From a virus: DNA of 64,000 nt. Made by a program: the position numbers and the translations under genes. The stretch spans positions 1-64,000 of IMG/VR virus record IMGVR_UViG_3300009182_003747; one strand, 5' to 3'. The notes below the pieces were generated by a model, which ran no database searches, was not told the origin of the DNA, and worked only from the letters and a program-made list of their open reading frames with translations. Below, in pieces: positions 3,693 to 23,493 of the stretch (positions are counted from its first letter, which is position 1; each line of letters opens with the position of its first letter).

Positions 3693-3697
3693 TATAT

Positions 3698-3773: not shown

Positions 3774-3778
3774 TTAAT

Positions 3779-3856: not shown

Positions 3857-3880
3857 ACTAATAACTGTAACAAAAGATTT

Positions 3881-3955
3881 ATCGGTCAGGGAAAGTGGTA
3901 ATCCGCAGGTCTCCAAAACCTTGAGAACTCAGTTCGATTCTGAGGACCGGTGCCA
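3881..3955 (+). tRNA. tRNA-Trp (anticodon CCA)
   Basis: Acceptor ATCGGTC pairs with GACCGGT 3945-3951 (one T-G pair), then G and CCA. The anticodon arm AGGT/ACCT has loop CTCCAAA and CCA at 3913-3915. The T-loop is TTCGATT. Confidence 0.88.
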
Positions 3956-3989
3956 ACTCATATATAGATAGTATGCAACTGGAGTCTCT

Positions 3990-4634: not shown

Positions 4635-4651
4635 TAAACTAGGAATACACC

Positions 4652-5122
4652 ATGAAGAAGATCGATATAGAAGAGGTAAGAGAGTTCATAGCGGCTCAGA
4701 CGCCAGAGACTAAGATCTATATCGGTGGTGACTCAGAAAGATTTAATATAAAGGGTCTGTGGTATGCAGACTACACTCTGGCCATAGTGGTGCACTACAG
4801 CGGTAATCGCGGCTGCAAGATATTCGGTGAGGTCCAGCGCGAGCGTGACTTCGACCAGCAGAAAGACAAGCCTCGGATGCGTCTTATGAATGAGGTCTAT
4901 AAGATAGCAGAGCTCTACATGAAGCTCGCGGAAGTACTGGAGGACAGACATGTGGAAGTGCATCTTGATATTAACCCAGATGAGCATTATGGTTCTTCCT
5001 GTGTTATTAATGAGGCTACCGGATATATTCGTGGTATGTGCAATATCGTTCCTTTGGTCAAGCCAAATGCTTTTGCTGCGTCCTATGCTGCGGACAGACT
5101 CAAAGAGATCCTAGCGGCGTGA
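4652..5122 (+). CDS. RNase H-fold protein of the YkuK/DUF458 type
   Basis: 156 residues from ATG 4652 behind AGGAAT. The first strand carries IYIGGDSER (22-30), the second acidic group is in HLDINPDEHYGSS, and a third conserved block KPNAFAASYAADR lies near the C-terminus. These are the recognisable motifs of the YkuK/DUF458 family, predicted to have an RNase H-like fold with an acidic metal site. The family is often found in phages and sporulating bacteria, and its substrate is not established. The gene follows the amidotransferase-like gene by 17 bases and precedes tRNA-Gly, so it may act on RNA during late infection. That role is inference. Confidence 0.7.
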   Translation: MKKIDIEEVREFIAAQTPETKIYIGGDSERFNIKGLWYADYTLAIVVHYSGNRGCKIFGEVQRERDFDQQKDKPRMRLMNEVYKIAELYMKLAEVLEDRHVEVHLDINPDEHYGSSCVINEATGYIRGMCNIVPLVKPNAFAASYAADRLKEILAA

Positions 5123-5135
5123 TATATAGAGATAT

Positions 5136-5210
5136 GCGGATGTAGCTCAGTGGTAGAGCGCGACCTTGCCAAGGTCGATGTCGAGGGTTCGACCCCCTTC
5201 GTCCGCTCCA
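5136..5210 (+). tRNA. tRNA-Gly (anticodon GCC)
   Basis: Acceptor GCGGATG pairs with CGTCCGC 5200-5206 (one G-U pair), then T and CCA. The anticodon stem is CGACC/GGTCG with loop TTGCCAA and GCC at 5168-5170. Confidence 0.95.
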
Positions 5211-5227
5211 TTTTTTAGGAGGAGCAT

Positions 5228-5542
5228 ATGAGATACTTAATACCACTGCTGCTTATGACCACCGCCGCTGTAGCACAACAGCAGAGCCAGAACCCGTGTG
5301 ATACCGCTCAGAAAGTACATGAATTTCTTACTCAGCAGTACGGCGAGAAGCCATTTATAGAGTTCAAAGACTCACAGGGTCGTCAGATGATAATGTATGT
5401 TAATCCTACTACTGGATCATATACAGTAATAACTACAAATAATATAAGTTCATGCGGTGTATCAGCAGGAAGTTCTTTTGCTCCCGCAGATCAAAATAGA
5501 TTTAAAGAATCAGAACCCAAGAAAAAAGAAGTTCCGAGTTAA
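5228..5542 (+). CDS. Small exported protein
   Basis: 104 residues from ATG 5228, preceded by the strong ribosome site AGGAGGA. The N-terminus MRYLIPLLLMTTAAVAQQ is a typical signal peptide with cleavage after AVA. The mature part is about 88 residues with two cysteines (one near the N-terminus, one in SSCGVS) that could form a periplasmic disulphide, and a Lys/Glu-rich tail. No enzyme motif is recognised. It is likely a periplasmic or cell-surface protein, perhaps modifying the host envelope during infection, which is inference. It is flanked by tRNA-Gly and a tiny membrane ORF. Confidence 0.7.
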   Translation: MRYLIPLLLMTTAAVAQQQSQNPCDTAQKVHEFLTQQYGEKPFIEFKDSQGRQMIMYVNPTTGSYTVITTNNISSCGVSAGSSFAPADQNRFKESEPKKKEVPS

Positions 5543-5545
5543 TAC

Positions 5546-5662
5546 ATGTACAAGATATTCAAGAGACTAGATAGAGTCTTTGATTTCATCATCAAGATAC
5601 TGTGGTTTGTACTCTTGTGCAAGTGGCTTCTTGGTACTGATATTATCAGTCTAATAAAGTAA
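5546..5662 (+). CDS. Possible 38-aa membrane mini-protein
   Basis: ATG 5546 follows the preceding stop by 3 bases, with TAA at 5660-5662 immediately before tRNA-Gly. The 38 residues start with a basic segment (MYKIFKRLDRVFDF), followed by a hydrophobic run (IIKILWFVLLCKWLLG) able to span a membrane. There is no good ribosome site of its own, so expression would depend on coupling to the upstream gene. The size and the amphipathic-basic then hydrophobic pattern are typical of small phage membrane effectors. Support is limited to spacing and composition. Confidence 0.4.
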   Translation: MYKIFKRLDRVFDFIIKILWFVLLCKWLLGTDIISLIK

Positions 5663-5664
5663 TT

Positions 5665-5739
5665 GCGGGTGTAGCTCAGTGGTAGAGCCTCAGTTTTCCA
5701 AACTGATTGTCGAGGGTTCGATCCCCTTCGCCCGCTCCA
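5665..5739 (+). tRNA. tRNA-Gly (anticodon UCC)
   Basis: Acceptor GCGGGTG pairs with CGCCCGC 5729-5735 (one G-U pair), then T and CCA. The anticodon stem is TCAGT/ACTGA with loop TTTCCAA and TCC at 5697-5699. Confidence 0.95.
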
Positions 5740-5740
5740 G

Positions 5741-5893
5741 AATTCGGTAGGCAGTGTAGATTCGCGGCCAAGTAAGCTCTCCACCCGATAGGTGTGTGGC
5801 TCTCTTACTTGGCGTGGTCGGGGAGGTATAAGCCTCATAACCATGGGAACCCGTGCACTGAAAAGAGGATGCATACTCGTTCCTACCGAACTT
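5741..5893 (+). ncRNA. Candidate multi-branched structured RNA
   Basis: This block between tRNA-Gly and the next promoter has no gene. A perfect closing helix joins TTCGGTAGG (5743-5751) to CCTACCGAA (5882-5890). Inside are a perfect 10-bp helix GCCAAGTAAG/CTTACTTGGC (5767-5776 with 5804-5813) capped by CACC/GGTG (5782-5785 with 5791-5794), a hairpin GAGG/CCTC (5823-5836), and a hairpin CATGG/CCGTG with a four-base GAAC loop (5842-5855). That gives a closed domain with at least three arms, about 150 nt. It lacks a T-loop and an anticodon arm, so it is not a tRNA. The class is unknown. Confidence 0.55.
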
Positions 5894-5928
5894 AATTGAT
5901 ACAAGAGGATTAAGATATATAGATTTAC

Positions 5929-5985
5929 CTGACTTTTATAGAGAGGGGTTTCTAGTAGACTAGAGCTCTCAAGTCAGTTATTATA
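5929..5985 (+). terminator. Probable intrinsic terminator after the structured RNA
   Basis: A long segmented hairpin: CTGACTT (5929-5935) with AAGTCAG (5971-5977), GAGAG (5941-5945) with CTCTC (5966-5970), and TCTAG/CTAGA (5951-5955 with 5960-5964) with a TAGA loop. It is followed by the U-rich TTATTATA. It lies just ahead of the next promoter, consistent with separating two transcription units. The U-tract is interrupted, so efficiency is uncertain. Confidence 0.5.
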
Positions 5986-5995
5986 AATTATCTAG

Positions 5996-6024
5996 TTGAC
6001 AGCTATTGATCTATATGGTATATT
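5996..6024 (+). promoter_or_regulatory. Consensus sigma70 promoter (TTGACA-N17-TATATT)
   Basis: TTGACA at 5996-6001, a spacer of 17, and TATATT at 6019-6024. It drives the unit containing a Leu-type tRNA, the outer-membrane protein, tRNA-Ser and the downstream acetyltransferase genes. It has the same -35, spacing and -10 as the 1734 promoter. Confidence 0.8.
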
Positions 6025-6042
6025 AATACTCTACCATAAAGT

Positions 6043-6119
6043 GCGCGTGTAGTCCAATTGGTAGAGGCGTTGGTCTTAGAAACCAAATGTTGGGGGTTCA
6101 AGTCCCTCCATGCGCACCA
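6043..6119 (+). tRNA. tRNA with Leu anticodon UAG but a short variable loop
   Basis: Acceptor GCGCGTG pairs with CATGCGC 6109-6115 (one G-U pair), then A73 and CCA. The anticodon stem is TTGGT/ACCAA with loop CTTAGAA and TAG at 6077-6079, reading CUA. Leucine tRNAs normally carry a long variable arm. Here only about five bases (ATGTT) separate the anticodon and T stems, and the D stem has only three good pairs. It may be a non-canonical Leu tRNA or be charged with something else. Confidence 0.8.
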
Positions 6120-6158
6120 AATTTCGGTCATGATGACCACAACACGGAGAAAGACTAT

Positions 6159-6812
6159 ATGAATAAGATCGTAATTACAGTAGCAGCTATGGCTGCTGCG
6201 ACTTCAGCTTATGCAACCGATCTTCCTAATAAGAAGAAGGCACCGACGCCGCCGGTTCAAACTGTAACTGCAGACGCCACTCAAGCGAGCGCAGACAGCT
6301 TGACGATTGCCTATGGACAAGATTTTGCTCCAGGTAAGTTCAGCTCAAAGACCGATGAAATGTATCAGCTCACGTACGCGCATAGTCTAGGCAATGGATT
6401 TACCGTAGGCGGCATGGCTCAGACTACACAAGTTCCAGGCTCTGCTTTAAACCAGAACTTAGAAGCACAGGCTGGCTACGCGCTTCCTGCTTTTTCTAAA
6501 GTTACACTGTCTGGTAAAGTTGGCGTAGGCGAGCGGTTTGGCACGTCTAACTTTCCATACTTTGCACTCTATGGCAATGCAGACTATAAGCTGAACGATA
6601 AGTTCACCATCAACGCCCTGCAGTATACATATACATCTGCATTCAACAGCGGTCGCGATGGTTATCAGAGCCATCAGCTTGGAACTGGCGTTACCTACAA
6701 CATCAACTCCAAGTACTCGCTGAGCGCCAGCGTCGCTCGTAACTTTGATACGACGACGAGCTTCAATGCTACCGGCGATCAGGTCATGCTCGGCATGAAT
6801 ATGAACTTCTGA
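6159..6812 (+). CDS. Outer-membrane beta-barrel protein (Rhizobiales Omp25/31-like)
   Basis: 217 residues from ATG 6159, behind GGAGAAAG. An upstream in-frame start at 6087 lies inside the tRNA and is rejected. A signal peptide, MNKIVITVAAMAAATSAYA, is followed by mature TDLPNKKKAPTPP, the ADLP-plus-proline-rich start seen in many rhizobial outer-membrane barrels. The rest alternates aromatic and polar residues in about eight amphipathic strands, and the last residue is Phe, as required for barrel assembly. A phage-coded porin-like protein could alter the host surface, for example blocking superinfection by receptor masking. That role is inference. It was probably acquired from a host. Confidence 0.75.
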   Translation: MNKIVITVAAMAAATSAYATDLPNKKKAPTPPVQTVTADATQASADSLTIAYGQDFAPGKFSSKTDEMYQLTYAHSLGNGFTVGGMAQTTQVPGSALNQNLEAQAGYALPAFSKVTLSGKVGVGERFGTSNFPYFALYGNADYKLNDKFTINALQYTYTSAFNSGRDGYQSHQLGTGVTYNINSKYSLSASVARNFDTTTSFNATGDQVMLGMNMNF

Positions 6813-6819
6813 TTATATT

Positions 6820-6907
6820 GGAGCGTGGGCAGGATGGTAATGCAGCGGTTTGCTAAACCGTACTACCTTAACTGGTAGAATAGGTTCGATTCCTATACGC
6901 TCCGCCA
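6820..6907 (+). tRNA. tRNA-Ser (anticodon GCU)
   Basis: Acceptor GGAGCGT pairs with ACGCTCC 6897-6903, then G and CCA 6905-6907. The anticodon stem is CGGT/ACCG with loop TTGCTAA and GCT. The long variable arm CTACC/GGTAG confirms class II. The final A is also the first base of the next ATG. Confidence 0.93.
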
Positions 6908-12901: not shown

Positions 12902-13564
12902 TTAGAAGCTAGAAGATGCTTCAACCGCCACGAAGTAGTCAGCCACATCACCTCTGAAGTGTGAGATACCCTTAGAAGAGATATCCACGTCGTAGTCTCC
13001 AGCGATTAGCTTGATGTTCTCAGACTTAAAGATCATCTTGAAGGTCTTGTCTGTCGAGCCAACCGCGATGGAGTAGACATCAGACGATGTGTTCTTTGAG
13101 TCCATCGCCTGTAGGTTGATGTCCTGTCCGTCGCCCACGACTGCGATCTCAGGCAGTCGTAGAACTCCAAGGCCCTTCATGACGTCATTGAGTGCGTCAT
13201 TAGTAAGCTTAAAAGATACGTCGGTGGTAGGCAGCTTGATCTCTTTATCGGGAGGCGAGATGACCGTAGAGGTATCAGCAAACCGATACTGCATCTTCTT
13301 TCCAGAGCTTAAGATCGTGACGTGCTTCTCGTTGATCTCAAGAGTCGGATCATTGAACAGGGATAGAGTGCTCAAGAATCGCGATAGATCATAGATAGCA
13401 AACTGACTCTCGAACTGCTGTCCGATTGTAGCCTTTGCCATGATCGTCTTGTTAGGCGAGATTGTAGTTAAGACGCTACCTGGCTTTACCAAGATAGACG
13501 GGTTGATAGTAGAGAAGTTCTTCAACACCGCGATGGTCTTTTGTTCTAGCTTAATGGTCTGCAT
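12902..13564 (-). CDS. gp45: Sliding clamp gp45
   Basis: 220 residues (T4: 228). The pattern is that of T4 clamps: N-terminal helix and strand KLEQKTIAVLKNFSTINPSI, a SILVKPGSVLTTISPNKT region, FAIYDLSRFLSTLSLF (the inter-domain segment) and the C-terminal DYFVAVEASSSF, with the final hydrophobic residue used for polymerase contact. It forms a trimeric ring that tethers the polymerase and, in T4, activates late transcription together with gp55 and gp33. Gene 44 follows after an 80-base regulatory gap. Confidence 0.92.
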   Translation of the reverse strand: MQTIKLEQKTIAVLKNFSTINPSILVKPGSVLTTISPNKTIMAKATIGQQFESQFAIYDLSRFLSTLSLFNDPTLEINEKHVTILSSGKKMQYRFADTSTVISPPDKEIKLPTTDVSFKLTNDALNDVMKGLGVLRLPEIAVVGDGQDINLQAMDSKNTSSDVYSIAVGSTDKTFKMIFKSENIKLIAGDYDVDISSKGISHFRGDVADYFVAVEASSSF

Positions 13565-13581: not shown

Positions 13582-14436
13582 TTACTTCTTATTCTTACCG
13601 CCGAGTGCGCCTGGATCTGCCGTAGCAGCAGCACCGATAGACGCTAGGTCGGCAAGTGAGCCGCCAAAGATATAGGTACCTACGTGCTGCATCTTCATCC
13701 AAGGGCAGAACCAAGTCTTGAGGTTTAGCTCTTGAATCTTCTGACAGAACCAGTAGTCCTCAGAGAGATAGCGATTAGATACTGGATCGATCTCAGCTTG
13801 GAAGTACTGCATGATCTGACGAGTACCATCGAAGTGCTCTGTGCGAACGTGATCTGGCTTGTAGAGATACTGCTTGAAGCTGTCAGCGAACTTCTGCATC
13901 GTAGCTTTCTTAATCATCATGAAGCCCGTGCCAATCTCAAGTACCTCGACTGGCTCCGCGATGGAGATGCTTCCCGCACCGCCCTTTGGATTGAACACGT
14001 AGTCACCCACGAAGTTCTCAAGAACGTTTGGATCTTTATCGGCGATACCCTTGTCGACCGCGAGTTTGATCTTCTCCCAGCTGATGCACTTCTTAGGATA
14101 TGGACCGCCGATGACGTCGTACTCATTGCCTTCCTTGATAGACAAGGCGAGGAGGGCGATAACATCCTGTGGGTTGAATCCAATATCTGAGTCGATAAAC
14201 ATCAGGTGAGTTGCGTCAGAGCGCATGAACTCGTCACAGCAGTAGTTACGTGCGCGAGTAATAAGCGACTCGTTAAACAAGAAGTAGAACTGCAGCGGGA
14301 TGCCATAGTGAGTGCAGAGTGCTGACAAGTCAGCGATAGAGCGAGTAAACATGCCCGCGCACATGCCGCCATACATCGGTGTGGCGATCATGATCTTGTG
14401 CTTGCGAAGCTCCTCAATCGGTACGTTAATTTCCAT
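13582..14436 (-). CDS. GT-A type glycosyltransferase (GT2-like)
   Basis: 284 residues. Residues 13-90 form a GT-A nucleotide-sugar domain: KIMIATPMYGG, LITRARNYCCDEF and the metal-binding DSD at 82-84 in HLMFIDSDIGFNPQD. Further on is the usual acceptor-side acidic motif YLSEDYWFCQK. A Gly/Ala-rich C-terminus ends NKK. A related enzyme lies at 47732-48439. The gene is the last of the modification block and is translationally linked to the DUF3310 gene (one-base overlap). The acceptor could be modified DNA or a surface glycan. Its position beside a DNA methyltransferase and a GT-B enzyme favours DNA or nucleotide, which is inference. Confidence 0.75.
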   Translation of the reverse strand: MEINVPIEELRKHKIMIATPMYGGMCAGMFTRSIADLSALCTHYGIPLQFYFLFNESLITRARNYCCDEFMRSDATHLMFIDSDIGFNPQDVIALLALSIKEGNEYDVIGGPYPKKCISWEKIKLAVDKGIADKDPNVLENFVGDYVFNPKGGAGSISIAEPVEVLEIGTGFMMIKKATMQKFADSFKQYLYKPDHVRTEHFDGTRQIMQYFQAEIDPVSNRYLSEDYWFCQKIQELNLKTWFCPWMKMQHVGTYIFGGSLADLASIGAAATADPGALGGKNKK

Positions 14437-14861
14437 TATTTAGACTCCTTGTTGTGTTCTTGATCATGAACATATAGTTGCATCATTGCGTAGTGAATGA
14501 CCTTCATCATGTCTTTTCTCCAGTCTTCTGGAGAACCCTTCCTGCCGTATCGCTGGGCGTACTTTAGTACATTCCCTACGCAGAAACCTGTGCCGTGTCC
14601 TGAGTCCATGATAAACTCAGTGGCTTGAAACTTATTCTTTGAGTAGTGCTCTCCGTATGTATTATTAATATACACCGTAAGCTCATTTAAGTAAACCCCT
14701 TCGTTGTACTTATATGGAATTTCTTTCTTGACGTCTACTTTGGTTATATTAAAACTCATGTTGATGTCTGTCTCGACGTATCCATCCTTTGGCCCTGTCG
14801 AGTACATAGGTTTCTTATCAGAACCACGCGCCCCAACTGTATATTTGCCTATTACATCCAT
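14436..14861 (-). CDS. DUF3310-like protein
   Basis: 141 residues. The C-terminal 40 residues, GNVLKYAQRYGRKG followed by PEDWRKDMMKVIHYAMM, match the DUF3310 (SaV-like) signature of a Lys-Tyr helix plus a second amphipathic helix, widespread in tailed phages and often loosely called nucleotide kinase without a P-loop. The N-terminal 90 residues are extra and mainly beta. The gene starts 10 bases inside the end of the methyltransferase gene, so the two are coupled. Its function is unknown. Its company suggests nucleotide metabolism. Confidence 0.6.
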   Translation of the reverse strand: MDVIGKYTVGARGSDKKPMYSTGPKDGYVETDINMSFNITKVDVKKEIPYKYNEGVYLNELTVYINNTYGEHYSKNKFQATEFIMDSGHGTGFCVGNVLKYAQRYGRKGSPEDWRKDMMKVIHYAMMQLYVHDQEHNKESK

Positions 14862-16045
14862 GCTGTAATGTCTCCTCCACTCTTAGCTTTAACTTCATAC
14901 TCTTGCGATAGATTACTCTGATAGACATAGTCTGTATCTAGCTCTTCTAAGCTACCCTCAAGCCACTTCTTGATCTCACTCGCCATATCTCTCGCGGTGA
15001 CTACCGGAACGTTCTGACAGATGTGGTTGTAGTTCTTGTGGGCGTCGAGAAGCTCGAAGTTATCAGGCAGACCCATGATGGTCATCGCCTCCCTGTAGTT
15101 TATATAGCGGTCTTCATGGGGATGCGTCAGGCAGGTTGGGTAGTGACCGACGAACGCGCCGATGTAGTCCTTAGGCACTATGGTACCACGACGCATGATA
15201 GATCCACCGGCATTTAGCTTGTCGTACTTGTACTGACACTTTGCCACCTCGCGCTCTAGCCCCTGAGCGGCCATCCACTCACCGACTTGCGCGTAGTTAT
15301 ACCCGAGCTTCTCGATATAACCAGACACGTCATTGCCGCGGGCGTTTGATGGCTCCATGATATCAAAGAACTCTCTGTGCGAGATACCGCCGTGGATGTT
15401 CTCTAGGATAAAACGGTAGTACGGGTCTTGACTAGGTGTCTTCTTGTTGATTGGATCGCGCTGACTGTTACCGAGCGCGCCGAGGATTACGTCCTCGATC
15501 TTTGTGTACGGGCGATTGAAGTAGCCTAAGACTGGTGTCTTATCGCTCTTCCAGAAGAAGTAGAATGAGCGCTCGCGAACTTGAGAACCACCGTGGAGCT
15601 TCGTCCTCGTGCGATAGACAGTCATGGTATAGCCGTTGTCCTGACCGATCTTACGAAGCTGCTTGCGGACGTTCTCACCGATCTTGCCGGCAAATCCGGG
15701 AGCGTTCTCACCCCAGAGTACCTTAGGCTGTACTTCCTCGAGAACGTACTTTGTTGTCTCGATCATCCACTTGTTATTCTGATTGTGATCGCCATAACCC
15801 TGAGACAGCATCGACAGGCCAGCGCATGGGCATACAGAGCCTACCACGTCTACCTTGACGTCAGGCTTCTGGTTCTTATCTAGTACGTAGTAGGGAACGT
15901 CTTGATAGTGATTGACGATATGCTGGTCGTTGGACCAGAACGCCTCGTACGACATGAGGTACTCAGGTCGAGTACCAAACGCTAGTTCTTGACCAATGGT
16001 CTCGCCGCCGATCAGGGGGACGATAGTCGCATGCTTAAAAGTCAC
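14852..16045 (-). CDS. C5 cytosine-specific DNA methyltransferase
   Basis: 397 residues with the ordered motifs of C5-MTases: a motif I-like PLIGGETIG (10-18), catalytic motif IV CPCAGLS with Cys74, motif VI ENAPGF at 113-118 (ENV in most enzymes), motif VIII QVRERSFYFF at 155-164 and motif X CQNVPVVTARDMASEI near the C-terminus. The enzyme transfers methyl from SAM to C5 of cytosine through a covalent Cys adduct. The PCAGLS form instead of PCQPFS is a phage-type variant. It could protect phage DNA or be part of a cytosine hypermodification pathway with the neighbouring TS-fold and glycosyltransferase genes. Confidence 0.85.
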   Translation of the reverse strand: MTFKHATIVPLIGGETIGQELAFGTRPEYLMSYEAFWSNDQHIVNHYQDVPYYVLDKNQKPDVKVDVVGSVCPCAGLSMLSQGYGDHNQNNKWMIETTKYVLEEVQPKVLWGENAPGFAGKIGENVRKQLRKIGQDNGYTMTVYRTRTKLHGGSQVRERSFYFFWKSDKTPVLGYFNRPYTKIEDVILGALGNSQRDPINKKTPSQDPYYRFILENIHGGISHREFFDIMEPSNARGNDVSGYIEKLGYNYAQVGEWMAAQGLEREVAKCQYKYDKLNAGGSIMRRGTIVPKDYIGAFVGHYPTCLTHPHEDRYINYREAMTIMGLPDNFELLDAHKNYNHICQNVPVVTARDMASEIKKWLEGSLEELDTDYVYQSNLSQEYEVKAKSGGDITAWM

Positions 16046-17142
16046 TTATTAGCCTCCAGTACGCGAGTAAGCTCTGCTCTCTCGGCCGCTTTATCTAGTG
16101 GGTGGTTATCATATAGACATTCGTACTGGTATTTAGCTAGCTTCTCTAGCTGGCTTTGGTCCATACCCTCGATGTCAGCTACGCTCAGACCGGTGAAGGC
16201 GTCACCGTAGATCTTACCCTCAGTATCCTCACAGTACAGGATAGAACCTGCGTCTACGACCTGCTGGACGCGAGAGCGCCACCATCCAGACCCAGCGTGG
16301 TAGTAGGCAGGCATCAGACAACCCCAGTGATTATTGTAAACTCGGCACATGTCCGGCTCTGTCACGCGCATGCTCTTGTGCTCACCGCGACGAGCGCCGT
16401 AGCTCATGACTTCCCAGTTGGCGGTCTTGCTGCTGAGCCACTTCTTTGTCTTATTTTGAATCAGCGATGAGAATACCCAGCCGCGAATCTTTTTATCTGG
16501 GCCGACGTCGTTGTCATCAAAGAAAGAGCCTAGGCCTTCTTCGCCGTAGTTATTCGTCGGCCCGCGATTTAAGTTATATGGGTTGGGATTGAATGAGAAT
16601 AATCTATCTGAAGGAAACCCATTCTTTAGTTTTGTAAGATCACCGCCTGCAAAGGCGCATACCATGAGTCGGTTCTTGCGAGACAAGACGATGTCGATGG
16701 CATCGATGTAGTCTTGCTTATGTGCCTTTACGGTCTCTTGGCTTGAGTTTCCAGAATACAGCTCGAACATATAGTCGCGAAAAGGCTTGTACTTCTCTTC
16801 GTCGAGTAAGTTCCTCTTGTACTGAGGATAGCTCGCCATCACCTGGTCGATCTGCCAGTCATCATGAGCAAAGATAGCATCAGGCCTAGCCTTGATTGCA
16901 TACAGCCCATCGTATAGATTCTGACAGAAAGACTGAATGCTGTGAAGGTAGATGATCACCTCGTCGTAGTGACTGATGTCCTCGCCGATTGTCACCGCGC
17001 GCTGCTCTACAGTCCAACCCATGTCCTCTAGGCATCTCACGAGCGAGTAGTGAGAGTTGAGGATCTTTAGTTCTTTCTTGAGGAAGTAGTCGCGTACGCA
17101 CTGCTCGCGATTCATACCGGTGATGAGTATCTTCTTAGCCAT
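16042..17142 (-). CDS. GT-B type glycosyltransferase, possible DNA glucosyltransferase
   Basis: 366 residues. Two Rossmann-like halves are visible: N-terminal KKILITGMNREQC with a helix SLVRCLEDMGWTVEQRAV and strand DEVIIYLHS, and a C-terminal half with SMRVTEPDMCRVYN and WWRSRVQQVVDAGSILYCED. That second segment resembles the nucleotide-sugar-binding region of GT-B enzymes, where T4 beta-glucosyltransferase has a similar R-V-W-E-x-x-A run. Length (T4 beta-GT: 351), order of elements and genome context agree with an enzyme that adds sugar to hydroxymethylated cytosine in DNA. No direct proof; a surface glycosyltransferase remains possible. Confidence 0.65.
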   Translation of the reverse strand: MAKKILITGMNREQCVRDYFLKKELKILNSHYSLVRCLEDMGWTVEQRAVTIGEDISHYDEVIIYLHSIQSFCQNLYDGLYAIKARPDAIFAHDDWQIDQVMASYPQYKRNLLDEEKYKPFRDYMFELYSGNSSQETVKAHKQDYIDAIDIVLSRKNRLMVCAFAGGDLTKLKNGFPSDRLFSFNPNPYNLNRGPTNNYGEEGLGSFFDDNDVGPDKKIRGWVFSSLIQNKTKKWLSSKTANWEVMSYGARRGEHKSMRVTEPDMCRVYNNHWGCLMPAYYHAGSGWWRSRVQQVVDAGSILYCEDTEGKIYGDAFTGLSVADIEGMDQSQLEKLAKYQYECLYDNHPLDKAAERAELTRVLEANK

Positions 17143-17515
17143 GGATATATTCCTTACACTTCACGAGCTGCTCTAGCTCATAGCTCTTATCATTTAGCTT
17201 TCTATTTAGTCCCGATGGATGGGGAAGCACGTGGTGCTCTACATTAATTTTTCGTAGTGCTTGAGATGGAAAGTTACCGAGTGCAATCACCTTGGCGTGT
17301 CCCTCTGTGCATGACTTCAGCATATCCAGATCGATGTCCTTAAACTTATAAGAACCAGGCTCACTGATGCAGTTGGTGAATGAGAACAGGTCTAACTCTA
17401 GATAGTCAGCCCAAGCAGGCAGACGCCGCCATGTGGTATTCTGCTTGAGCTTTGCTGCAGACGGGTTGATACCAACGATGAGTACCCTACCAAGCTTCTG
17501 GTTCGCTGACGGCAT
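17135..17515 (-). CDS. Uracil-DNA-glycosylase-fold protein (family-4/DUF1643-like)
   Basis: 126 residues. Strand VLIVGINPSA (12-20) is motif 1 of the UDG superfamily, KVIALGNFPSQAL (76-88) is the central strand, and HVLPHPSGLNR (95-105) is the typical second catalytic loop HPSGxNR. The protein is about half the size of a full UDG and lacks the Fe-S cysteine pattern of family 4, so it is a compact member. It could read or excise an altered pyrimidine, or act on free modified nucleotides. It overlaps dCMP deaminase on one side and the glycosyltransferase on the other. Confidence 0.7.
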   Translation of the reverse strand: MPSANQKLGRVLIVGINPSAAKLKQNTTWRRLPAWADYLELDLFSFTNCISEPGSYKFKDIDLDMLKSCTEGHAKVIALGNFPSQALRKINVEHHVLPHPSGLNRKLNDKSYELEQLVKCKEYIHG

Positions 17516-17984
17516 CTAGTAGTTCTCCAGTTTTATAGTCGTATCTAGCTGCGAATACACCAGCTTCTTTGAACATCATAGACGTGAACTTATATGCATC
17601 ATGCCATATGGGAGCGATATCAGCAGGATGGCAGATAAACACACGCTTGATACCTACCTGTATGACTCCCTTGGCGCACTCAGAGCAAACAGGAAGACCA
17701 TGTACGTACAGGTCCGCGCCGTTGAGACTAGTACCATTGAGCGTAGCATTATATATGCAGTTCTGTTCTGCGTGCACTACGAACTTGTACTTGGTCTCTC
17801 TGTCATGCAGGCGTTCTTGACTATCTTCTACCCCACGCGGGAAGCCGTTGTAGCCCTGCGAGAGGATCTGTCCGTGTTTGCCTACGGCCACAGCTCCAAC
17901 TTGCGTGCTTGGATCTTTAGACCAAGACGATATATGCTGAGCTAACCTGAGGTAGTTCTGCGTCCACTTATACGACAAGATCAA
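17487..17984 (-). CDS. dCMP deaminase
   Basis: About 165 residues. Zinc and catalytic motifs: VVHAEQN (HAE) and LPVCSECAKGV (PxxC-x-x-C), preceded by the usual WTQNYLRLAQ start and STQVGAVAV. No ATG fits. The long upstream frame lies inside the TS-like gene, so the likely start is TTG 17984, with GAGAGG just upstream and the conserved Trp six residues in. Deamination of dCMP gives dUMP. In T4 the same enzyme balances dTMP against hydroxymethyl-dCMP synthesis, and it directly follows a TS-fold enzyme here. Confidence 0.85.
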   Translation of the reverse strand: MILSYKWTQNYLRLAQHISSWSKDPSTQVGAVAVGKHGQILSQGYNGFPRGVEDSQERLHDRETKYKFVVHAEQNCIYNATLNGTSLNGADLYVHGLPVCSECAKGVIQVGIKRVFICHPADIAPIWHDAYKFTSMMFKEAGVFAARYDYKTGELLDAVSEPEAW

Positions 17985-18624
17985 AATGCCTCTCGTATAC
18001 GTGAAGGCTGCCGACCTGCCACGTGATCTCACCTGCGATGACACCGAGATCTGCCGCCAGCTTCTGCTGCACGTGTTTCTGCCAGGCATAGTCGTTCTTA
18101 TATCCATAGACGACATCATTGGATCGCATCTGAACTACAGTCTGGAGCTTACCATCTCGAATCATGTACTGAACTGCGTTGGTGCACATGAAGTCAGACC
18201 GACCGTTGTAGTCATAGTCATACCACATGCTGGGCCGAGTATAGATCATGATTGCGCGACGAGACAGTGGGTTCCTAATTAGCTCTTCAAAGCAATTCTT
18301 ATACTGGTTCTCATTCTCAGAAGTGTAGATACACCAGCCGTAGTTTGAGTTGATAAATCCATCATGGTCTGCAACCTGCTGCCAGATCGCTGGTGCACCA
18401 CCTGGAATATCATACACGTTTAGAGACTTAGAGTTATACCAATCGATCTCGCGCTTGATGTAGTCATCATTTGGAGTGCCAAAGATAGCTGGTTCATTAG
18501 CTCGAAACTGTGCGCCGACCATCTCGAGCATCTTAACGCCGGTCTTATCGGTAACAAAGTCCTCACGCTCGAGCATGCTCTTGAAAGCGCCGCGGATAGT
18601 ATTGATTGTGAACATATAGTCCAT
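17968..18624 (-). CDS. Thymidylate-synthase-fold enzyme, probable dCMP (hydroxy)methyltransferase
   Basis: 218 residues. Conserved TS residues are present: paired phosphate-binding Arg122-Arg123, nucleophile Cys147, Gln152, R167-S168-x-D170, and H208-x-Y210. The residue that aligns with the pyrimidine-reading Asn177 of E. coli TS is Asp178 (segment YGYKNDYAW). Asn-to-Asp at this site is what distinguishes T4 dCMP hydroxymethylase (Asp179) from thymidylate synthase, and it converts TS to dCMP specificity. The C-terminal folate-closing tail of TS is absent. Best reading: a cytosine-specific C5 (hydroxy)methyltransferase supplying modified dCMP. Ordinary TS is the alternative. Confidence 0.7.
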   Translation of the reverse strand: MDYMFTINTIRGAFKSMLEREDFVTDKTGVKMLEMVGAQFRANEPAIFGTPNDDYIKREIDWYNSKSLNVYDIPGGAPAIWQQVADHDGFINSNYGWCIYTSENENQYKNCFEELIRNPLSRRAIMIYTRPSMWYDYDYNGRSDFMCTNAVQYMIRDGKLQTVVQMRSNDVVYGYKNDYAWQKHVQQKLAADLGVIAGEITWQVGSLHVYERHFDLVV

Positions 18625-19061
18625 TAGAGATCTCCTGGTCTAGCGATTGGATTGATACCAAAGCCCGGCGCGCCTGACATAGTAAATGCATTATCTTGCG
18701 GACGAAGTTTTGGTACTTTTTCAAGCATGATCTTGCGATTAAGAAAGTCGCGATCTGCATCTTGGCCTTCGACCTTACCACGAGCATACGCCACGAAGAA
18801 CGAAGCGTAGTTGATTAGGTCCTTTGCTGAGTCTTCTAGCGACTCAAAGTTCTGCGTGTAGCCAGGATCGTTCTGCATGGCTTCCATGACAGACCGCATG
18901 CGAAGCATCTTGGCGTGCATGATCTCGTGGATAGTCAGACAGCCGGATGGATAGTAGTCTGACTGCTTGATCTTTGAGTTGGGATTCTGATAGTCACGTG
19001 ACTTCTTGAGCTGAAGATCAATGCACTCTTGAAGAACTTTTACTGACTCACGTTGTTCCAT
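18624..19061 (-). CDS. Nmad1/DUF1599-like protein
   Basis: 145 residues. The motifs SRDYQNPNS (the K-x-x-D-Y-x-N type), LTIHEIMHAKMLRMRSVM and ESLEDSAKDLINYASFF (E-S-x-x-D-x-x-x-D-L-x-N-Y) match the helical nucleotide-modification-associated domain Nmad1 (DUF1599), a family named for its repeated location next to modified-base genes in phages. Its start overlaps nothing, and its end overlaps the TS-like gene by one base (TAATG), so the two are coupled. An NTP-pyrophosphatase-like role for modified nucleotides is suspected for the family. Confidence 0.65.
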   Translation of the reverse strand: MEQRESVKVLQECIDLQLKKSRDYQNPNSKIKQSDYYPSGCLTIHEIMHAKMLRMRSVMEAMQNDPGYTQNFESLEDSAKDLINYASFFVAYARGKVEGQDADRDFLNRKIMLEKVPKLRPQDNAFTMSGAPGFGINPIARPGDL

Positions 19062-19062
19062 A

Positions 19063-19629
19063 TTATACTCCTAGGTCGATGCAATCGCCATAGCTGATTG
19101 CTGATGCGTGATTAAACTTGTAGGGACTCATTCCAGTTGTATTCTTTATAATATACCGCGAAAGCTTTTTACTGTCAATAAGAAACTTCGGTCTGTACTT
19201 ATACGTAAGAGGCTTTAGTTCTTCATAGGCCATAACCAGAAAGAAGTCATTGAGCTTGGTTGAGCGAATAACAGACTCGCACTGACCGTCGCTGATGTAC
19301 CACACCGAATACTTACCGTTCATGGTCTTGACCTCACCGGACTTATCCTCGCAGATAACATCTTTCTTACGCTGAGCATACGTCAATCCAGCCGCGTCCT
19401 CTGTTATAGGATGCGCCTGCTGAAAGTCCTCAATCTGTTGGATTGCAATCTCGGCGCCGAGACCTACCGCGGTATTTCGAACCACTGTATCTCTCGAGCG
19501 TGCGCCGCGTCGACGGCACTCTGTCTTCCAGTTTGTCTCTACCATCATATCTAGATCACCCCTGTGATCCAAGAGATTAATGGTGGTGGATAGACTACGA
19601 AGTTTTTCTACAATAGAATTGCTGAGCAT
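19063..19629 (-). CDS. Putative PD-(D/E)XK nuclease-like protein
   Basis: 188 residues. An N-terminal helical region with a CRRRGARSRD basic stretch is followed by GLGAEIAIQQIEDF (helix with Glu), then the strand pair KKDVICEDKSGEVKTM, in which D-x(9)-E-x-K fits the PD-(D/E)XK catalytic core, and KYSVWYISDG. This is the order of many restriction-like nucleases. No family is recognised with certainty. It is the first gene of the modification block behind a perfect promoter, so it might cut unmodified DNA, for example host DNA, while glycosylated phage DNA is resistant. That is inference. Confidence 0.5.
   Translation of the reverse strand: MLSNSIVEKLRSLSTTINLLDHRGDLDMMVETNWKTECRRRGARSRDTVVRNTAVGLGAEIAIQQIEDFQQAHPITEDAAGLTYAQRKKDVICEDKSGEVKTMNGKYSVWYISDGQCESVIRSTKLNDFFLVMAYEELKPLTYKYRPKFLIDSKKLSRYIIKNTTGMSPYKFNHASAISYGDCIDLGV
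19150..19178 (-). promoter_or_regulatory. Gene-internal sigma70-type promoter (TTGACA-N17-TATATT)
   Basis: Minus strand -35 TTGACA 19173-19178 and -10 TATATT 19150-19155, inside the 3' part of the nuclease-like gene. It would add transcription of the Nmad1, TS-fold and dCMP deaminase genes. Confidence 0.6.
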
Positions 19630-19655: not shown

Positions 19656-19684
19656 ATTATAACATGCTCAGCAATATTTGTCAA
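19656..19684 (-). promoter_or_regulatory. Perfect consensus sigma70 promoter (TTGACA-N17-TATAAT)
   Basis: Minus strand -35 19679-19684, spacer of 17, and -10 19656-19661, ahead of ATG 19629. The -35 hexamer is followed by AAT and the -10 preceded by TGT, features repeated in the promoters at 27188-27216 and 59523-59551. Confidence 0.85.
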
Positions 19685-20082
19685 TAGGTAATCATGGTGA
19701 ACAACCCGTGATTACCCTCGTGTGATGGAGCTTTCCATCCCTCAGGCTTGATTAGATCTGGTAGGCCGAGAGGGTTAGGCCGCTCTGGCTTAACACCCGT
19801 CTTCTTATTCATGTTAGCTTCTAAGACCTCGTCCCAAGCTCTATGAGAGTCGACGCCAAAACCGTCGAGAGTTCCAATTGCAACGACGCACAGGTCGATC
19901 AGAGCGTCGACCACGTCCTCGGCTCCACTTGCTTTTCTGAGCTCATCGAGTTCTTCTTGCAAGAAGTTAATGCGAAACTCGAGAAACTTTGCAAGAGTCT
20001 CAGAGTCCATCTTATCAATAACAGGATGTACTCCATAGTGCTTATGCATCCTCCAAATATCTTTTACCCAGTCTTTAGACAT
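19681..20082 (-). CDS. MazG-like/phosphoribosyl-ATP pyrophosphatase-like NTP pyrophosphohydrolase
   Basis: 133 residues. The all-alpha NTP-PPase core is seen in FLEFRINFLQEELDELRKA (metal-binding E-E-x-x-E) and DVVDALIDLCVVAIGTL (D-x-x-D), followed by AWDEVLEANMNKK, the usual third helix. These enzymes hydrolyse NTPs or modified dNTPs to monophosphates. A phage that makes a modified nucleotide commonly carries one to remove the unmodified dNTP. The C-terminal proline-rich tail (ERPNPLGLPDLIKPEGW) is the usual end of the phage subgroup. Its start overlaps the previous gene by 8 bases. Confidence 0.75.
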   Translation of the reverse strand: MSKDWVKDIWRMHKHYGVHPVIDKMDSETLAKFLEFRINFLQEELDELRKASGAEDVVDALIDLCVVAIGTLDGFGVDSHRAWDEVLEANMNKKTGVKPERPNPLGLPDLIKPEGWKAPSHEGNHGLFTMITY

Positions 20083-20611
20083 TAATCCACTCCGGTGCTT
20101 CTCGTTTTTTCCAATTATGCATCTTGGCTTTACCTATCTTATAATAGTTTCTGTAATTTGTCAATGGGTCGCTGCTGATCTTGTACTCGTCTGCCATAGC
20201 CGATGGCATTGGAGTCCAGTCGTAAGACTGTAGGTTCTTAGGAGGTGACTGAAGATAGTAGCCCATGTCATAGCACTTGTGCTTCTTGCCATAGCGATAT
20301 GTATACTCCTCGCACAGCGCAAAGAAGTGCTCTACGAGCCAGTTGTAGTTCTCTATGGACTCACGACACCAAACTGCAGAGGGATGGTTCATGTGAGTGG
20401 CCGCGTACATGATCGTGTCGCGAGCATCTGGAAGAGTCCACCTCTTTACCTTGCGGCCTAGCTTAGACAAGCCGACTTGCATCTCGCCGTCGAGTACGCG
20501 ATGAGCAGTCGAGAGCAGTTGTGCTGACTCGAGGATCATCTTTACCACGTGTTTATCCACCATCCAGCGCGCTGCCTGCACCGGATCTTCATCAATATAA
20601 AAGATATTCAT
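20075..20611 (-). CDS. Conserved phage protein, pyrimidine-dimer-glycosylase-like annotation family
   Basis: 178 residues. The N-terminus MNIFYIDEDPVQAARWM is followed by DKHVVKMILESAQLLSTAHR and HMNHPSAVWCRESIENYNWL. This is a highly recognisable conserved tailed-phage protein that databases label either hypothetical or pyrimidine dimer DNA glycosylase. The His/Glu-rich helices could hold a metal or a DNA lesion. I recognise the family pattern but not a proven activity. It is flanked by the FkbM methyltransferase and the MazG-like gene with short overlaps, and an internal promoter lies in its 3' end. Confidence 0.65.
   Translation of the reverse strand: MNIFYIDEDPVQAARWMVDKHVVKMILESAQLLSTAHRVLDGEMQVGLSKLGRKVKRWTLPDARDTIMYAATHMNHPSAVWCRESIENYNWLVEHFFALCEEYTYRYGKKHKCYDMGYYLQSPPKNLQSYDWTPMPSAMADEYKISSDPLTNYRNYYKIGKAKMHNWKKREAPEWINV
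20136..20164 (-). promoter_or_regulatory. Gene-internal sigma70-type promoter (TTGACA-N17-TAAGAT)
   Basis: Minus strand -35 TTGACA 20159-20164 followed by AAT, spacer of 17, and -10 TAAGAT 20136-20141, near the 3' end of the gene at 20075 and ahead of the MazG-like gene. Confidence 0.5.
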
Positions 20612-21291
20612 TATTTACTCGCGTATATCATGCTTGCCCAGTTATTCTTAGGATCTTGCGCAGTGACCACCTTAAATTCCTTTGATAGGTAGTCGACAGT
20701 CCACTTGAACTTGTCTTTTGTCTTACCGTCGCGAAGAGCATTCTGGTGCCATTCCATTACCATGGCCTCGATCGGAGTCCAGTCGACTACGTCATTTTGG
20801 AAGATGTCCCACTCACCGCCCTCGATGTCGAGCTTGAGCTTGTTGGCGCCAGACTCAGCTAGCGCTCTAGAGAATCTAGTTGCCTTCGCAGTAGTAAAAT
20901 CTCGGCCTCTACTCGTAACCGTCGAGTGCATGCCCTTGTTCTTGAGCTTGTTGATGAAGAACTTGATCTCGCTATCGTCAGAACCGATAAGAGCCAGATT
21001 ATGGAGAGTAACATTCGAGCACCCGTTCCGTTCTAAGTTCTTACGGGCGATCTCGTAGTTGTCGGCATCGGGTTCGTATGATACCACTCGGCTCACGAGC
21101 TTTGAAACTCGCGTCGAGTAGGCAGCGATATTACAGCCGGCATCCATTACCACATCAGTTGGCTTATAGCTCATCACGTCATTGAAGTAAGTACTACGGT
21201 AGCACTCGTCTACCACGTATTTATCTAGAGTTTCAGGTCGAGTATAGAATGTCTCATTCTCATTCTTACGCGTGTAGTCCTCAAGCAACAT
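20611..21291 (-). CDS. FkbM-family SAM-dependent methyltransferase
   Basis: 226 residues. A Rossmann methyltransferase core: motif I VVMDAGCNIAAYS (about 47-59), acidic strand-2 end VVSYEPDADNYE, NVTLHNLALIGSDD (typical FkbM strand), then LKLDIEGGEWDIF, the family's D-I-E-G-x-E signature. FkbM enzymes O-methylate sugars or small molecules. Here it might methylate a DNA-linked or surface sugar. It overlaps peptide deformylase by 11 bases and the following gene by one. Confidence 0.8.
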   Translation of the reverse strand: MLLEDYTRKNENETFYTRPETLDKYVVDECYRSTYFNDVMSYKPTDVVMDAGCNIAAYSTRVSKLVSRVVSYEPDADNYEIARKNLERNGCSNVTLHNLALIGSDDSEIKFFINKLKNKGMHSTVTSRGRDFTTAKATRFSRALAESGANKLKLDIEGGEWDIFQNDVVDWTPIEAMVMEWHQNALRDGKTKDKFKWTVDYLSKEFKVVTAQDPKNNWASMIYASK

Positions 21292-21784
21292 TTTTAACTC
21301 CTTGGAATAGTGAATCGCGCTTCTTGAATGCTAGCTCGCGATGGTACTTGTTAGCTCGGTTATAGAACAAGATGCCGTCGAGATGGTCGATCTCATGCTG
21401 GAATACTCGAGCGGTCATGCCTGTAAACATCTCAGTTCGTGTGTCGCCATTTGGCATGGTGAATCGAACTCGAACGTGCTGAGACCGCTTTACCTTTACC
21501 ACGAGACCCGGATACGACATGCATCCCTCGTCGAGTAGTACTTTCTCGTCGCTGGCCATAACGATCTTTGGATTAAAGCACACGAAGTTCTCAGGCATGC
21601 TTCTCATGGCAAAGACGCGATATGGAACTCCAACCTGATTAGCCGACAAGCCAATTCCATTATTATCGCGCATGAACTTAACGAGATCTTTTGCGAACTC
21701 GATTGGATCAAACGGAGGACTTGCAAAGTCAAACTCCATGCACTCGCGTGTTAAGATAGGGTTACTTCCAGTCACTAGATCCAT
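21281..21784 (-). CDS. def: Peptide deformylase
   Basis: 167 residues. All three deformylase motifs are intact: GIGLSANQVG (43-52), EGCMS (86-90) with metal ligand Cys88, and QHEIDH (129-134) with the two histidine ligands and catalytic Glu. It removes the formyl group from new polypeptides. Phages with this gene often have late proteins that saturate the host enzyme. The ATG overlaps the gp46 stop by one base (TAATG), so it is coupled to gp46, and a perfect internal promoter in gp46 (21872-21900) can express it separately. Confidence 0.95.
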   Translation of the reverse strand: MDLVTGSNPILTRECMEFDFASPPFDPIEFAKDLVKFMRDNNGIGLSANQVGVPYRVFAMRSMPENFVCFNPKIVMASDEKVLLDEGCMSYPGLVVKVKRSQHVRVRFTMPNGDTRTEMFTGMTARVFQHEIDHLDGILFYNRANKYHRELAFKKRDSLFQGVKNVA

Positions 21785-23493
21785 TATGCTACCATCCTTG
21801 AAAAGTTCTTGTGCTTCTCGAACCGAATAACGTTGTCGAACTTATCCGCGATTTGATCCGTCTTATGGCTTATTATATACACATTTGAGTCATTTGTCAA
21901 CTGATTAATTATCTTCATGAACTCCTCAGTTCCATTGGCGTCAAGTGAGCTGTCGAACACCTCGTCCATGATGAGGATGTTGGTGTTGATAGAGTTGCGA
22001 AGCTTGGCAACTGCCCTCCACGTGAAGAGAACTGCAAGGTTGATCCTCATCTTCTCACCCTCCGAGAAAGAAGCGTAGGAGAACTCATCGCGGTATCTTG
22101 ACTTGATGGTCTCATTGAAGTTCTCGTCGAGGTTGAACTCAACGAAGAAGTCCATGGCCGCGAGGTACTTGTTGATGAGCTTGTTGATGATTGGGATGTA
22201 CTGCTTGATCATGCGCGACTTGATACCGCCGTCTTTCAAGAGCATTCCCGCTGCAGACAGAAGAAGCTGCTCCTCACCTAGGTCTACTATCTTGTTCTTA
22301 GTGTCTTCTAGCTCTCTAAGAAGATCATCGATCTTGGTGGTGTCCTGCTGCTCTTGGTCTTGCTTGATGTTGTCGATCTCATCTTTGAGCTGGTCTTTAT
22401 AAGACTGAAGCGAGTCGATCTTGGTGATGACCCTGTGGCGATCCATCTTCTTGGTGTTGATGTCGTTGTGTATATTTAAGATCTCATCGAGCTTCTGACT
22501 CGCGGCCTCGTACTCGGCGGTGAGCTGGTCGAGTCCTTGGTCTACCGCAGTGATATCGTCGGTCTTCTTCTGAATTGACTCAGCCCTGAATCCCTCGTCA
22601 ATCTGCTGCTGACATGTCGGGCAGTTCTCGTGGTTGTTTAGGAACTCGATGTCACCGCGATAGGTGGCGATCTTTGCCTCGAGCTGGTGCTTCAGTGTAG
22701 ACAGCTTGTTCTTACGACGAGTTATAGTGTCCTCATCGGTAAGCTTAGAATTTAACTCCGAGATGTCTCTGTCGAGAGAGAACTTGGTCTCTATGTTTCT
22801 ACTGATCTCATCTGTGGTAGACTTGATGCGATCTTTCTTCTCTGCGATGATCTTTGCGTTGTTCTTGTCGTTCTCAGCGATATGCTCGCGCACGAGCTTG
22901 ATCTTCTCTTCTACGAGATCTTTATCCTTGTCGGCCTTCCATATGTTGTTTGAGTTGTCCGACACTTTCTGCTTGAGCAGCGTGTTCATCGTAGTGAAGA
23001 TCTGAAGGTCGAGTAGGTCCTCGATGATGTCCCTGCGCTGGCCGGCGGGAAGCTGCATGAACGGCACGAATGAAGCCGATCCTAAGACTACCACCTGACA
23101 GAACGACTTGTGGTTTATCTTTAAGATCTGCTTCTCTAGGATCTCCTGGTAGTCGCGTACATCCGACGACTGGTTCAAGAGAGCTCCGTTCATGTAAACC
23201 TCGAAGAAGTTCGGCCGAACTCCGCGAGAGATCTTGTACATGTTCTGACCGATGCTGAACTCGAGCTCGACCACCAGATCTTTCTTGGTGATTGAGTTGA
23301 GAAGCTGAGGTTTATTTATCTTTCGGAACGGCTTGTTGAATAAGCCGTATGATAGGGCATCAAGAATAGTAGACTTGCCTGCACCATTCTCACCTATGAT
23401 GAGAGTGTTGTTGGACTTGTCCAGTGGTATCTCTGTGAATAGATTGCCCGTAGATAGAAAGTTCTTATAACGGATCTTGTGGAATACTATCAT
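21784..23493 (-). CDS. gp46: Recombination endonuclease subunit gp46 (Rad50/SbcC-like)
   Basis: 569 residues (T4: 560). Walker A GENGAGKS at 34-41, long coiled-coil arms around a zinc hook ENCPTCQQQ near the middle, the ABC signature FSEGEKMRINLA, Walker B ILIMDEVFD and the distal H-loop. With gp47 it forms the Mre11/Rad50-type nuclease that resects ends for recombination-dependent replication. The start overlaps the gp47 end by four bases (ATGA), as in T4-like phages. Confidence 0.95.
   Translation of the reverse strand: MIVFHKIRYKNFLSTGNLFTEIPLDKSNNTLIIGENGAGKSTILDALSYGLFNKPFRKINKPQLLNSITKKDLVVELEFSIGQNMYKISRGVRPNFFEVYMNGALLNQSSDVRDYQEILEKQILKINHKSFCQVVVLGSASFVPFMQLPAGQRRDIIEDLLDLQIFTTMNTLLKQKVSDNSNNIWKADKDKDLVEEKIKLVREHIAENDKNNAKIIAEKKDRIKSTTDEISRNIETKFSLDRDISELNSKLTDEDTITRRKNKLSTLKHQLEAKIATYRGDIEFLNNHENCPTCQQQIDEGFRAESIQKKTDDITAVDQGLDQLTAEYEAASQKLDEILNIHNDINTKKMDRHRVITKIDSLQSYKDQLKDEIDNIKQDQEQQDTTKIDDLLRELEDTKNKIVDLGEEQLLLSAAGMLLKDGGIKSRMIKQYIPIINKLINKYLAAMDFFVEFNLDENFNETIKSRYRDEFSYASFSEGEKMRINLAVLFTWRAVAKLRNSINTNILIMDEVFDSSLDANGTEEFMKIINQLTNDSNVYIISHKTDQIADKFDNVIRFEKHKNFSRMVA
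21872..21900 (-). promoter_or_regulatory. Perfect gene-internal promoter (TTGACA-N17-TATAAT)
   Basis: Minus strand -35 21895-21900, spacer of 17, and -10 21872-21877, within codons of the last 40 residues of gp46 and 88 bases ahead of the deformylase ATG. The full consensus match inside a coding region is notable. Confidence 0.75.

Follow-up and report, generated by a model that had tools for sequence, protein, structure and literature searches.

Several pathways that modify cytosine in phage DNA have been described. The T4 pathway comprises gp42, gp56, gp1, cd, a-gt, b-gt and denA/denB/alc, and the diversion of dCMP to dUMP is the established role of the T4 dCMP deaminase. Phages of the TET type use 5-methylcytosine (5mC) as an intermediate, in a pathway that combines a C5-cytosine methyltransferase (C5-MTase) with a TET-associated glycosyltransferase (TAGT). 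RB69 and Mosigvirus phages carry 5-arabinosyl-dC (PMC6024577; PMC13390438), the Mosigvirus thymidylate synthase (TS) superfamily enzyme being described as a 5-hydroxy-dCMP synthase (PMC13390438), and a pathway to 5-carbamoyloxymethyl-dC has been reported (MetaGPA, PMC8670742). Here we describe an operon (13582-19629, minus strand) in a 64-kb stretch of phage DNA, hereafter the window, which is positions 1 to 64,000 of the 104,111-base IMG/VR record IMGVR_UViG_3300009182_003747. Judging from its genes and a structural model, this cassette very probably makes a glycosylated 5-hydroxymethylcytosine (hmC) genome in a T4-like phage, the base chemistry being a prediction.

Hydroxymethylase and GT-B glycosyltransferase

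The TS-like protein of the cassette shares 60% identity with T4 gp42 and 28% with the RB69 048c 5-hydroxy-dCMP synthase, and among the T4 homologues found in the record it is the closest to its T4 counterpart. Glu60, Cys148 and Asp179 of T4 gp42 are conserved in all 53 distinct aligned hydroxymethylase sequences, and Asp179 is the determinant of specificity for dCMP over dUMP (PMC6400193). An earlier reading of the same DNA without database searches, hereafter the sequence-only reading, had noticed a cytosine-type Asp in this enzyme, and it is this residue that aligns with D179. We predict with high confidence, from the family and its catalytic residues, that the product is 5-hydroxymethyl-dCMP.

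The GT-B glycosyltransferase belongs to phrog_14998, a family annotated as of unknown function, and it has no Pfam match, including to PF11440 (AGT). Its sequence profile also detects no homology to RB69 ORF003c. An AlphaFold2 model built from 40 relatives (pLDDT 88.7, pTM 0.87) was compared with the PDB, and the best nine matches were all T4 beta- or alpha-glucosyltransferase (BGT, AGT). These two enzymes account for 14 of the 23 matches at E<=0.001, with a best E of 2.6e-7 and a TM of about 0.55-0.6 for BGT; the highest-ranking match to any other protein had an E of 7.5e-5. The glycosyltransferase assignment of the sequence-only reading, which had suggested a comparison with T4 beta-GT, is thus upheld by the fold. 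Since the profiles reveal no homology, the link to the T4 glucosyltransferases rests on fold and genomic context; going by the model, GT-B lies outside the AGT and BGT sequence families and probably works like them.

The context is informative. In IMG/VR relatives of the C5-MTase the same operon recurs with the glycosyltransferase position variously filled: by a true T4 alpha-GT in L019 and L026 (PF11440, 310 bits in L026), by TAGT in L031 (PF20691; phrog_842, beta-glucosyl-HMC-alpha-GT), by GalE, GT-B and UDP-galactopyranose mutase (UGM) in L015-L018, and by unfamiliar enzymes, including a pyridoxal-phosphate (PLP)-type protein, in L022 and L028. In L027-L031 the C5-MTase lies directly upstream of uvsX-gp41, adjoining the 42/b-gt position of T4. 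Homologues of GT-B also adjoin three routes to a C5-hydroxyl, namely TET (C48C1), an RB69-type arabinose cluster (PSTRCR_121) and gp42 (phages of Aeromonas and Erwinia). From this slot exchange and genomic context we argue that GT-B modifies DNA, and that it is likely an hmC-DNA glycosyltransferase, its family being the third by sequence to share the fold of the T4 DNA glucosyltransferases. If so, a likely function is supplied for a phage family previously annotated as unknown.

A GT-B profile search found 321 loci, of which 80 were kept, and our counts are given over 53 distinct loci, most of which share ancestry and synteny, so that the counts are not independent. A hydroxymethylase is present in 51 of these, a C5-MTase in 51 and the GT-A glycosyltransferase in 44. 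The gene directly after GT-B is the C5-MTase in 30/53 loci, while UGM and then the C5-MTase follow it in 21/53.

The proposed course of the pathway is that MazG and/or Nmad1 would hydrolyse dCTP to dCMP, which the gp42-type enzyme would convert to 5-hydroxymethyl-dCMP, while the dCMP deaminase would divert surplus dCMP to dUMP for thymine. The resulting hmdCTP would be polymerised into DNA, the kinase gene not being found in the record, and GT-B, to judge by its fold, would flip and glycosylate hmC in the manner of T4 BGT/AGT. The donor would probably be a host nucleotide sugar in the window's clade; for the sister clade we predict UDP-galactofuranose from the linked UGM, accompanied by GalE in some. 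The nuclease at 19063-19629 would degrade unmodified host DNA, the C5-MTase-family enzyme may act on cytosine that escapes hydroxymethylation or on hmC, and the UDG-like protein, more tentatively, would most likely repair deaminated hmC or U. Cytosine hydroxymethylation with DNA glycosylation, as put forward in the sequence-only reading, is strongly supported by the gp42-type hydroxymethylase, the GT-B fold and the slot exchange with alpha-GT and TAGT.

The operon and its genes

BLAST against T4 matched regA, gp62, gp44, gp45, gp46, gp47, gp55 and uvsW in the record, as well as uvsY, gp17, gp18, gp20, gp23 and others, and on this gene content the virus is a T4-like phage of bacteria. The polymerase/primase region had no T4 match in the 104,111 bases, and we therefore treat the record as incomplete. 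A megablast search against phage records gave no match. The operon lies leftward between gp45 and gp46, nearly all of its genes overlapping by 1-29 bp, in the order GT-A, DUF3310, C5-MTase, GT-B, UDG-like, dCMP deaminase and dCMP hydroxymethylase, after which come Nmad1, the candidate nuclease, MazG, the pyrimidine-dimer-glycosylase-like gene, FkbM and a peptide deformylase. Pfam and PHROGs gave the family assignments:

12902..13564, minus strand: gp45 sliding clamp, left border (32% identity to T4 gp45, E 3.6e-25)
13582..14436, minus strand: GT-A-type glycosyltransferase (phrog_1574, 2.1e-57; FIDxDI motif)
14436..14861, minus strand: DUF3310 protein (PF11753, 5.8e-10)
14852..16045, minus strand: C5-cytosine-methyltransferase-family enzyme (PF00145, 3.2e-16)
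16042..17142, minus strand: GT-B glycosyltransferase, candidate DNA (hydroxymethylcytosine) glycosyltransferase (phrog_14998, 3.8e-35)
17135..17515, minus strand: UDG-superfamily-like protein with GINPS / HPSGLNR motifs (PF03167, 4e-4)
17487..17978, minus strand: dCMP deaminase (PF00383, 7.6e-18; phrog_174)
17968..18624, minus strand: dCMP hydroxymethylase, T4 gp42 type (TS PF00303, 2.1e-17; 60% identity to T4 gp42, E 1.7e-93)
18624..19061, minus strand: Nmad1 (DUF1599) protein (orthologues match PF07659)
19063..19629, minus strand: candidate endonuclease (phrog_1360, DenB-like, 0.003; D...ExK pattern)
19681..20082, minus strand: MazG-like nucleotide pyrophosphohydrolase, candidate dCTPase (PF01503, PRA-PH/MazG, 1.7e-7; phrog_671)
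20075..20611, minus strand: pyrimidine-dimer DNA glycosylase-like protein, DenV family (PF03013, 5.8e-6)
20611..21291, minus strand: FkbM-type methyltransferase (PF05050, 2.3e-8)
21784..23493, minus strand: gp46 recombination endonuclease subunit, right border (36% identity to T4 gp46, E 2.5e-106)

All of the genes named in the sequence-only reading are present, run leftward and nearly all overlap, and the domain matches above agree with its calls of a dCMP deaminase, a C5-MTase, a DUF3310 protein and a MazG-like pyrophosphatase; its list had passed over the nuclease gene between Nmad1 and MazG, and it had overlooked the exchange of genes at fixed slots. It had also placed MazG and an FkbM methyltransferase just upstream. 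Both are there, but FkbM occurs in 1/53 distinct loci and was rejected as a cassette member, its presence being incidental. The pyrimidine-dimer-glycosylase-like gene is a frequent neighbour outside the pathway. Elsewhere in the window, positions 837-6907 hold a rightward cluster of twelve tRNA genes.

Among the nucleotide-pool genes, the dCMP deaminase carries the HAE...CSEC (CxxC) zinc motif, and its start codon is uncertain, the open reading frame extending back into the hydroxymethylase gene. The Nmad1 assignment is borne out through relatives: PF07659 (Nucleotide modification associated domain 1) matches 10/15 orthologues (best 1.1e-7), the window protein itself falls below the threshold, and the alignment of relatives has 29 invariant columns. 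A PDB profile search with Nmad1 gave nothing significant. MazG and Nmad1 are candidate substitutes for gp56.

The UDG-like protein of the window matches PF03167 below the cut-off, while 25/26 orthologues match it (best 4.6e-6). At the profile level these orthologues bear out the UDG call of the sequence-only reading, but the structure search returned no significant fold match; a PDB profile search gave nothing significant, and no match was found in 50,697 phage records. A role in repair or in the nucleotide pool is more plausible for this protein than one in the pathway.

Two further positions in the operon vary between lineages. The family profile of the 19063-19629 protein, run against 830 T4 open reading frames, finds T4 DenB best at a weak E of 0.0017, making it a candidate nuclease of DenB-like/PD-(D/E)xK type; BLAST gave no match to denA or alc in the record. 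This slot upstream of Nmad1 holds a different small protein in each lineage (L068-L119), many with a D...ExK pattern as judged by eye, and no family support was found for these small proteins. Such a fast-changing slot may possibly hold lineage-specific enzymes directed against unmodified DNA. The DUF3310 slot between the C5-MTase and GT-A holds a DexA-like exonuclease (27-32% to T4 DexA) in L117:9295-9930, L136:8348-8974 and L111:8345-8968, and T4 DexA treats unmodified host DNA and 5hmC DNA differently (PMC12153337). The nuclease and DexA slots fit a cassette by which phage DNA is told apart from that of the host.

For GT-A there is no Pfam family above the cut-off; its FIDxDI (DxD-type) motif is invariant in 12 relatives, in line with the GT-A call of the sequence-only reading. 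The gene lies just before gp45 in 40/53 distinct GT-B loci and adjoins gp45 likewise in DLP_6 and Cr30, which carry TET, and in phiM12, for which searches gave no gp42-type hydroxymethylase and no TET. Because it is present in phiM12, GT-A need not act on the base, and we regard it as a clade-wide gp45 neighbour, not a demonstrated pathway step. As a separate observation, PF12851, the TET/JBP dioxygenase domain, is present in genes of Caulobacter phage Cr30 (L041:14039-15367) and Stenotrophomonas phage DLP_6 (L040:5440-6786) whose annotation is SNF2 DNA repair protein. Neither genome yielded a PF00145 C5-MTase that could supply 5mC.

Sugar modules and the GT-B tree

The GT-B proteins whose loci carry UGM form one group on the GT-B tree, with 2 label changes compared with 24 in shuffles. 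This group includes C48C1 (TET-GT-B-UGM), Aeromonas ZHF and Erwinia FBB1 (UGM-GT-B), and UGM occurs beside GT-B in four genomic settings. Providencia PSTRCR_121 is the one member of the group without UGM; the branches here are long, which makes its placement unsure. In a phage collection of 50,697 records UGM is present in 88, GT-B in 43 and both in 23, most of these 23 being near-identical Aeromonas phages, so that about three independent lineages are represented. We predict that GT-B enzymes of the UGM clade attach galactofuranose to hmC, or a different furanose that UGM produces; this is testable in culturable Aeromonas and Erwinia phages without the uncultured phage. Agrobacterium phage Atu_ph04, whose genes include UGM as well as a dCMP hydroxymethylase, is resistant to nine restriction enzymes (PMC6630229). 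In phages of Rhizobium and Ochrobactrum no glycosyltransferase is annotated beside UGM, so these add no support. No report of galactofuranose on phage DNA was found in the open-licence literature, which omits most subscription journals.

UGM as a general partner of GT-B was rejected for the window's clade, which falls outside the UGM group. The simplest guess at the donor in this clade is a UDP-sugar of the host. A nucleotide-sugar dehydratase near 101.6-102.6 kb of the record was rejected as a donor gene, being absent from the closest long relatives. It stands beside a group-1 glycosyltransferase (L003:16617-18619, at about 100.6-102.6 kb of the record), with which it probably forms a separate glycan module. 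Among the relatives searched, G021 alone has a close homologue of the dehydratase (56%).

The family is tied to other sugar modules as well. In PSTRCR_121, GT-B lies inside an RB69-like sugar cluster with homologues of 055c, fused 053c+052c, 051c, 050c and 048c at 49-84%. Phages with arabinose genes yet without a known arabinosyltransferase have been noted earlier (PMC8056088), and in PSTRCR_121, with its RB69-like cluster, GT-B is a candidate for that enzyme. In L022:4691-8734 and L028:4889-9998 the glycosyltransferase slot, inside the hydroxymethylase...C5-MTase cassette, holds proteins of 383-402, 339-351, 300-305 (PLP) and 360-370 amino acids. The PLP enzyme belongs to phrog_7093 (threonine-dehydratase-like), the protein of 360-370 amino acids is 27% identical to an Aeromonas ZHF gene beside the UGM-GT-B of that phage, and a possible role of this gene set is a non-sugar route to hypermodified hmC.

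Alternative readings and described systems

Several points weigh against a glycosylated hmC genome. The GT-B profile detects neither T4 AGT nor BGT, and the shared ancestry of the loci limits what their counts can say. T4 gp56 dCTPase was not found in the record or in a 150-kb relative, records that may be incomplete, while the same search did match in relative G002; for the gp1 hmdCMP kinase there was no match in 10 records including that of the window, in a search without a positive control and over records that may be incomplete. The cassette of the window's clade holds no dedicated sugar-donor gene, and no UGM was found in a 125-kb relative. Finally, the target carbon of the C5-MTase should be blocked if all cytosine is replaced by hmC, which raises the question of why hmC phages keep a fully intact C5-MTase beside the hydroxymethylase.

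The C5-MTase profile matches M.HaeIII and M.HhaI in the PDB, and the catalytic residues in the window are C74, E113, N114, Q155, R157 and R159. Motif I reads VPLIGG, not FxGxGG, and its GG, the Cys of PC, EN, QxRxR and the Asn of motif X are invariant in 61/61 distinct sequences, so the enzyme is not decaying. It could methylate residual cytosine after partial replacement, act on host or early DNA, or act on hmC. C5-MTases are known to catalyse the loss or exchange of the hydroxymethyl group of hmC in vitro. An unlikely version of the last option is that the enzyme removes or exchanges the hydroxymethyl of hmC at chosen sites in DNA through the same Cys-C6 adduct, which would give two layers, a bulk sugar added by GT-B (in the UGM clade, galactofuranose) plus an edit confined to particular sites. 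The intact residues, and the precedent of 5mC in TET-type phages, would also suit a phage in which post-replicative 5mC is the final base and the hydroxymethylase is vestigial or serves only the pool. We consider this very unlikely, as the residues of the hydroxymethylase are kept just as fully, in 53/53 sequences, and the enzyme is the most T4-like of the T4 homologues found, and the TET/JBP dioxygenase (PF12851) was not found in the incomplete 104-kb record. Phages that hypermodify thymine can likewise encode a TS-fold enzyme, a dCMP deaminase and Nmad1, but a thymine or uracil derivative of the 5-hydroxymethyluracil type is hardly credible here, given the specificity Asp in 53/53 sequences, the 60% identity to gp42 and the much lower 28% to the RB69-type synthase.

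That the glycosyltransferases modify surface glycans or virion proteins, beside an unrelated hydroxymethylase operon, is highly improbable. UGM and GalE are genes typical of surface polysaccharides, surface glycosyltransferases are common in phages, and the record has a GT4 gene beside the nucleotide-sugar dehydratase near 100-103 kb. However, the closest PDB folds of GT-B are the T4 DNA glucosyltransferases, which contradicts for GT-B a surface-polysaccharide assignment of both enzymes, true DNA glycosyltransferases fill its slot in relatives, and GT-B accompanies hydroxymethylase and TET genes in phages that are not related to one another. The sequence-only reading had suggested a different, possibly branched base, and it is possible, if rather doubtful, that GT-B and GT-A act in sequence to build a disaccharide on hmC, as in T6-type/arabinobiose phages. 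The frequency of GT-A in the GT-B loci and its place before gp45 would fit, T4 a-gt being reported to interact with the gp45 clamp (PMC6024577), as would the TET genes found close to it in Cr30 and DLP_6. Extra genes beside GT-B in other cassettes, a GT8 (L136:5302-5985), a GT4 (L111:4906-5985) and a GT2 (L101:4877-5632), hint at oligosaccharides on the base. GT-A nevertheless occupies the same place in phiM12, and it stays where GT-B is replaced (L019, L022), as a clade-wide gene would. The different, possibly branched base is only supported in part.

A glycosylated hmC genome, the reading we prefer, would place this phage close to T4, with which it shares a gp42-type hydroxymethylase, a dCMP deaminase, a glycosyltransferase of BGT/AGT fold, a candidate host-DNA nuclease and the placement of the cassette among T4 replication genes. 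Unlike in T4, a single operon between gp45 and gp46 unites the genes, GT-B forms a sequence family of its own, the place of a recognisable gp56 is taken by MazG/Nmad1, and C5-MTase, UDG-like and GT-A genes, which T4 does not have, are linked. RB69 and the Mosigviruses share a TS-superfamily base-hydroxylating enzyme and a DNA glycosyltransferase, whereas the window enzyme is of the T4 type, its cassette has no arabinose genes and GT-B is not detectably related to ORF003c. With the TET pathway the cassette has in common a C5-MTase family and a DNA glycosyltransferase, TAGT occurring in L031 and GT-B beside TET in C48C1, but the window would make hmC on the nucleotide via gp42. The 5-carbamoyloxymethyl-dC pathway likewise clusters a TS-type hydroxymethylase, a dCMP deaminase and PRA-PH/MazG in modified-cytosine contigs, with a carbamoyltransferase where the window has a glycosyltransferase. 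Aeromonas Tulanevirus phages and Erwinia FBB1, which are T4-like and carry gp42, share a GT-B homologue (27-28%) beside UGM, but their UGM-GT-B pair lies by motA, outside the gp42 operon, and no C5-MTase was found there.

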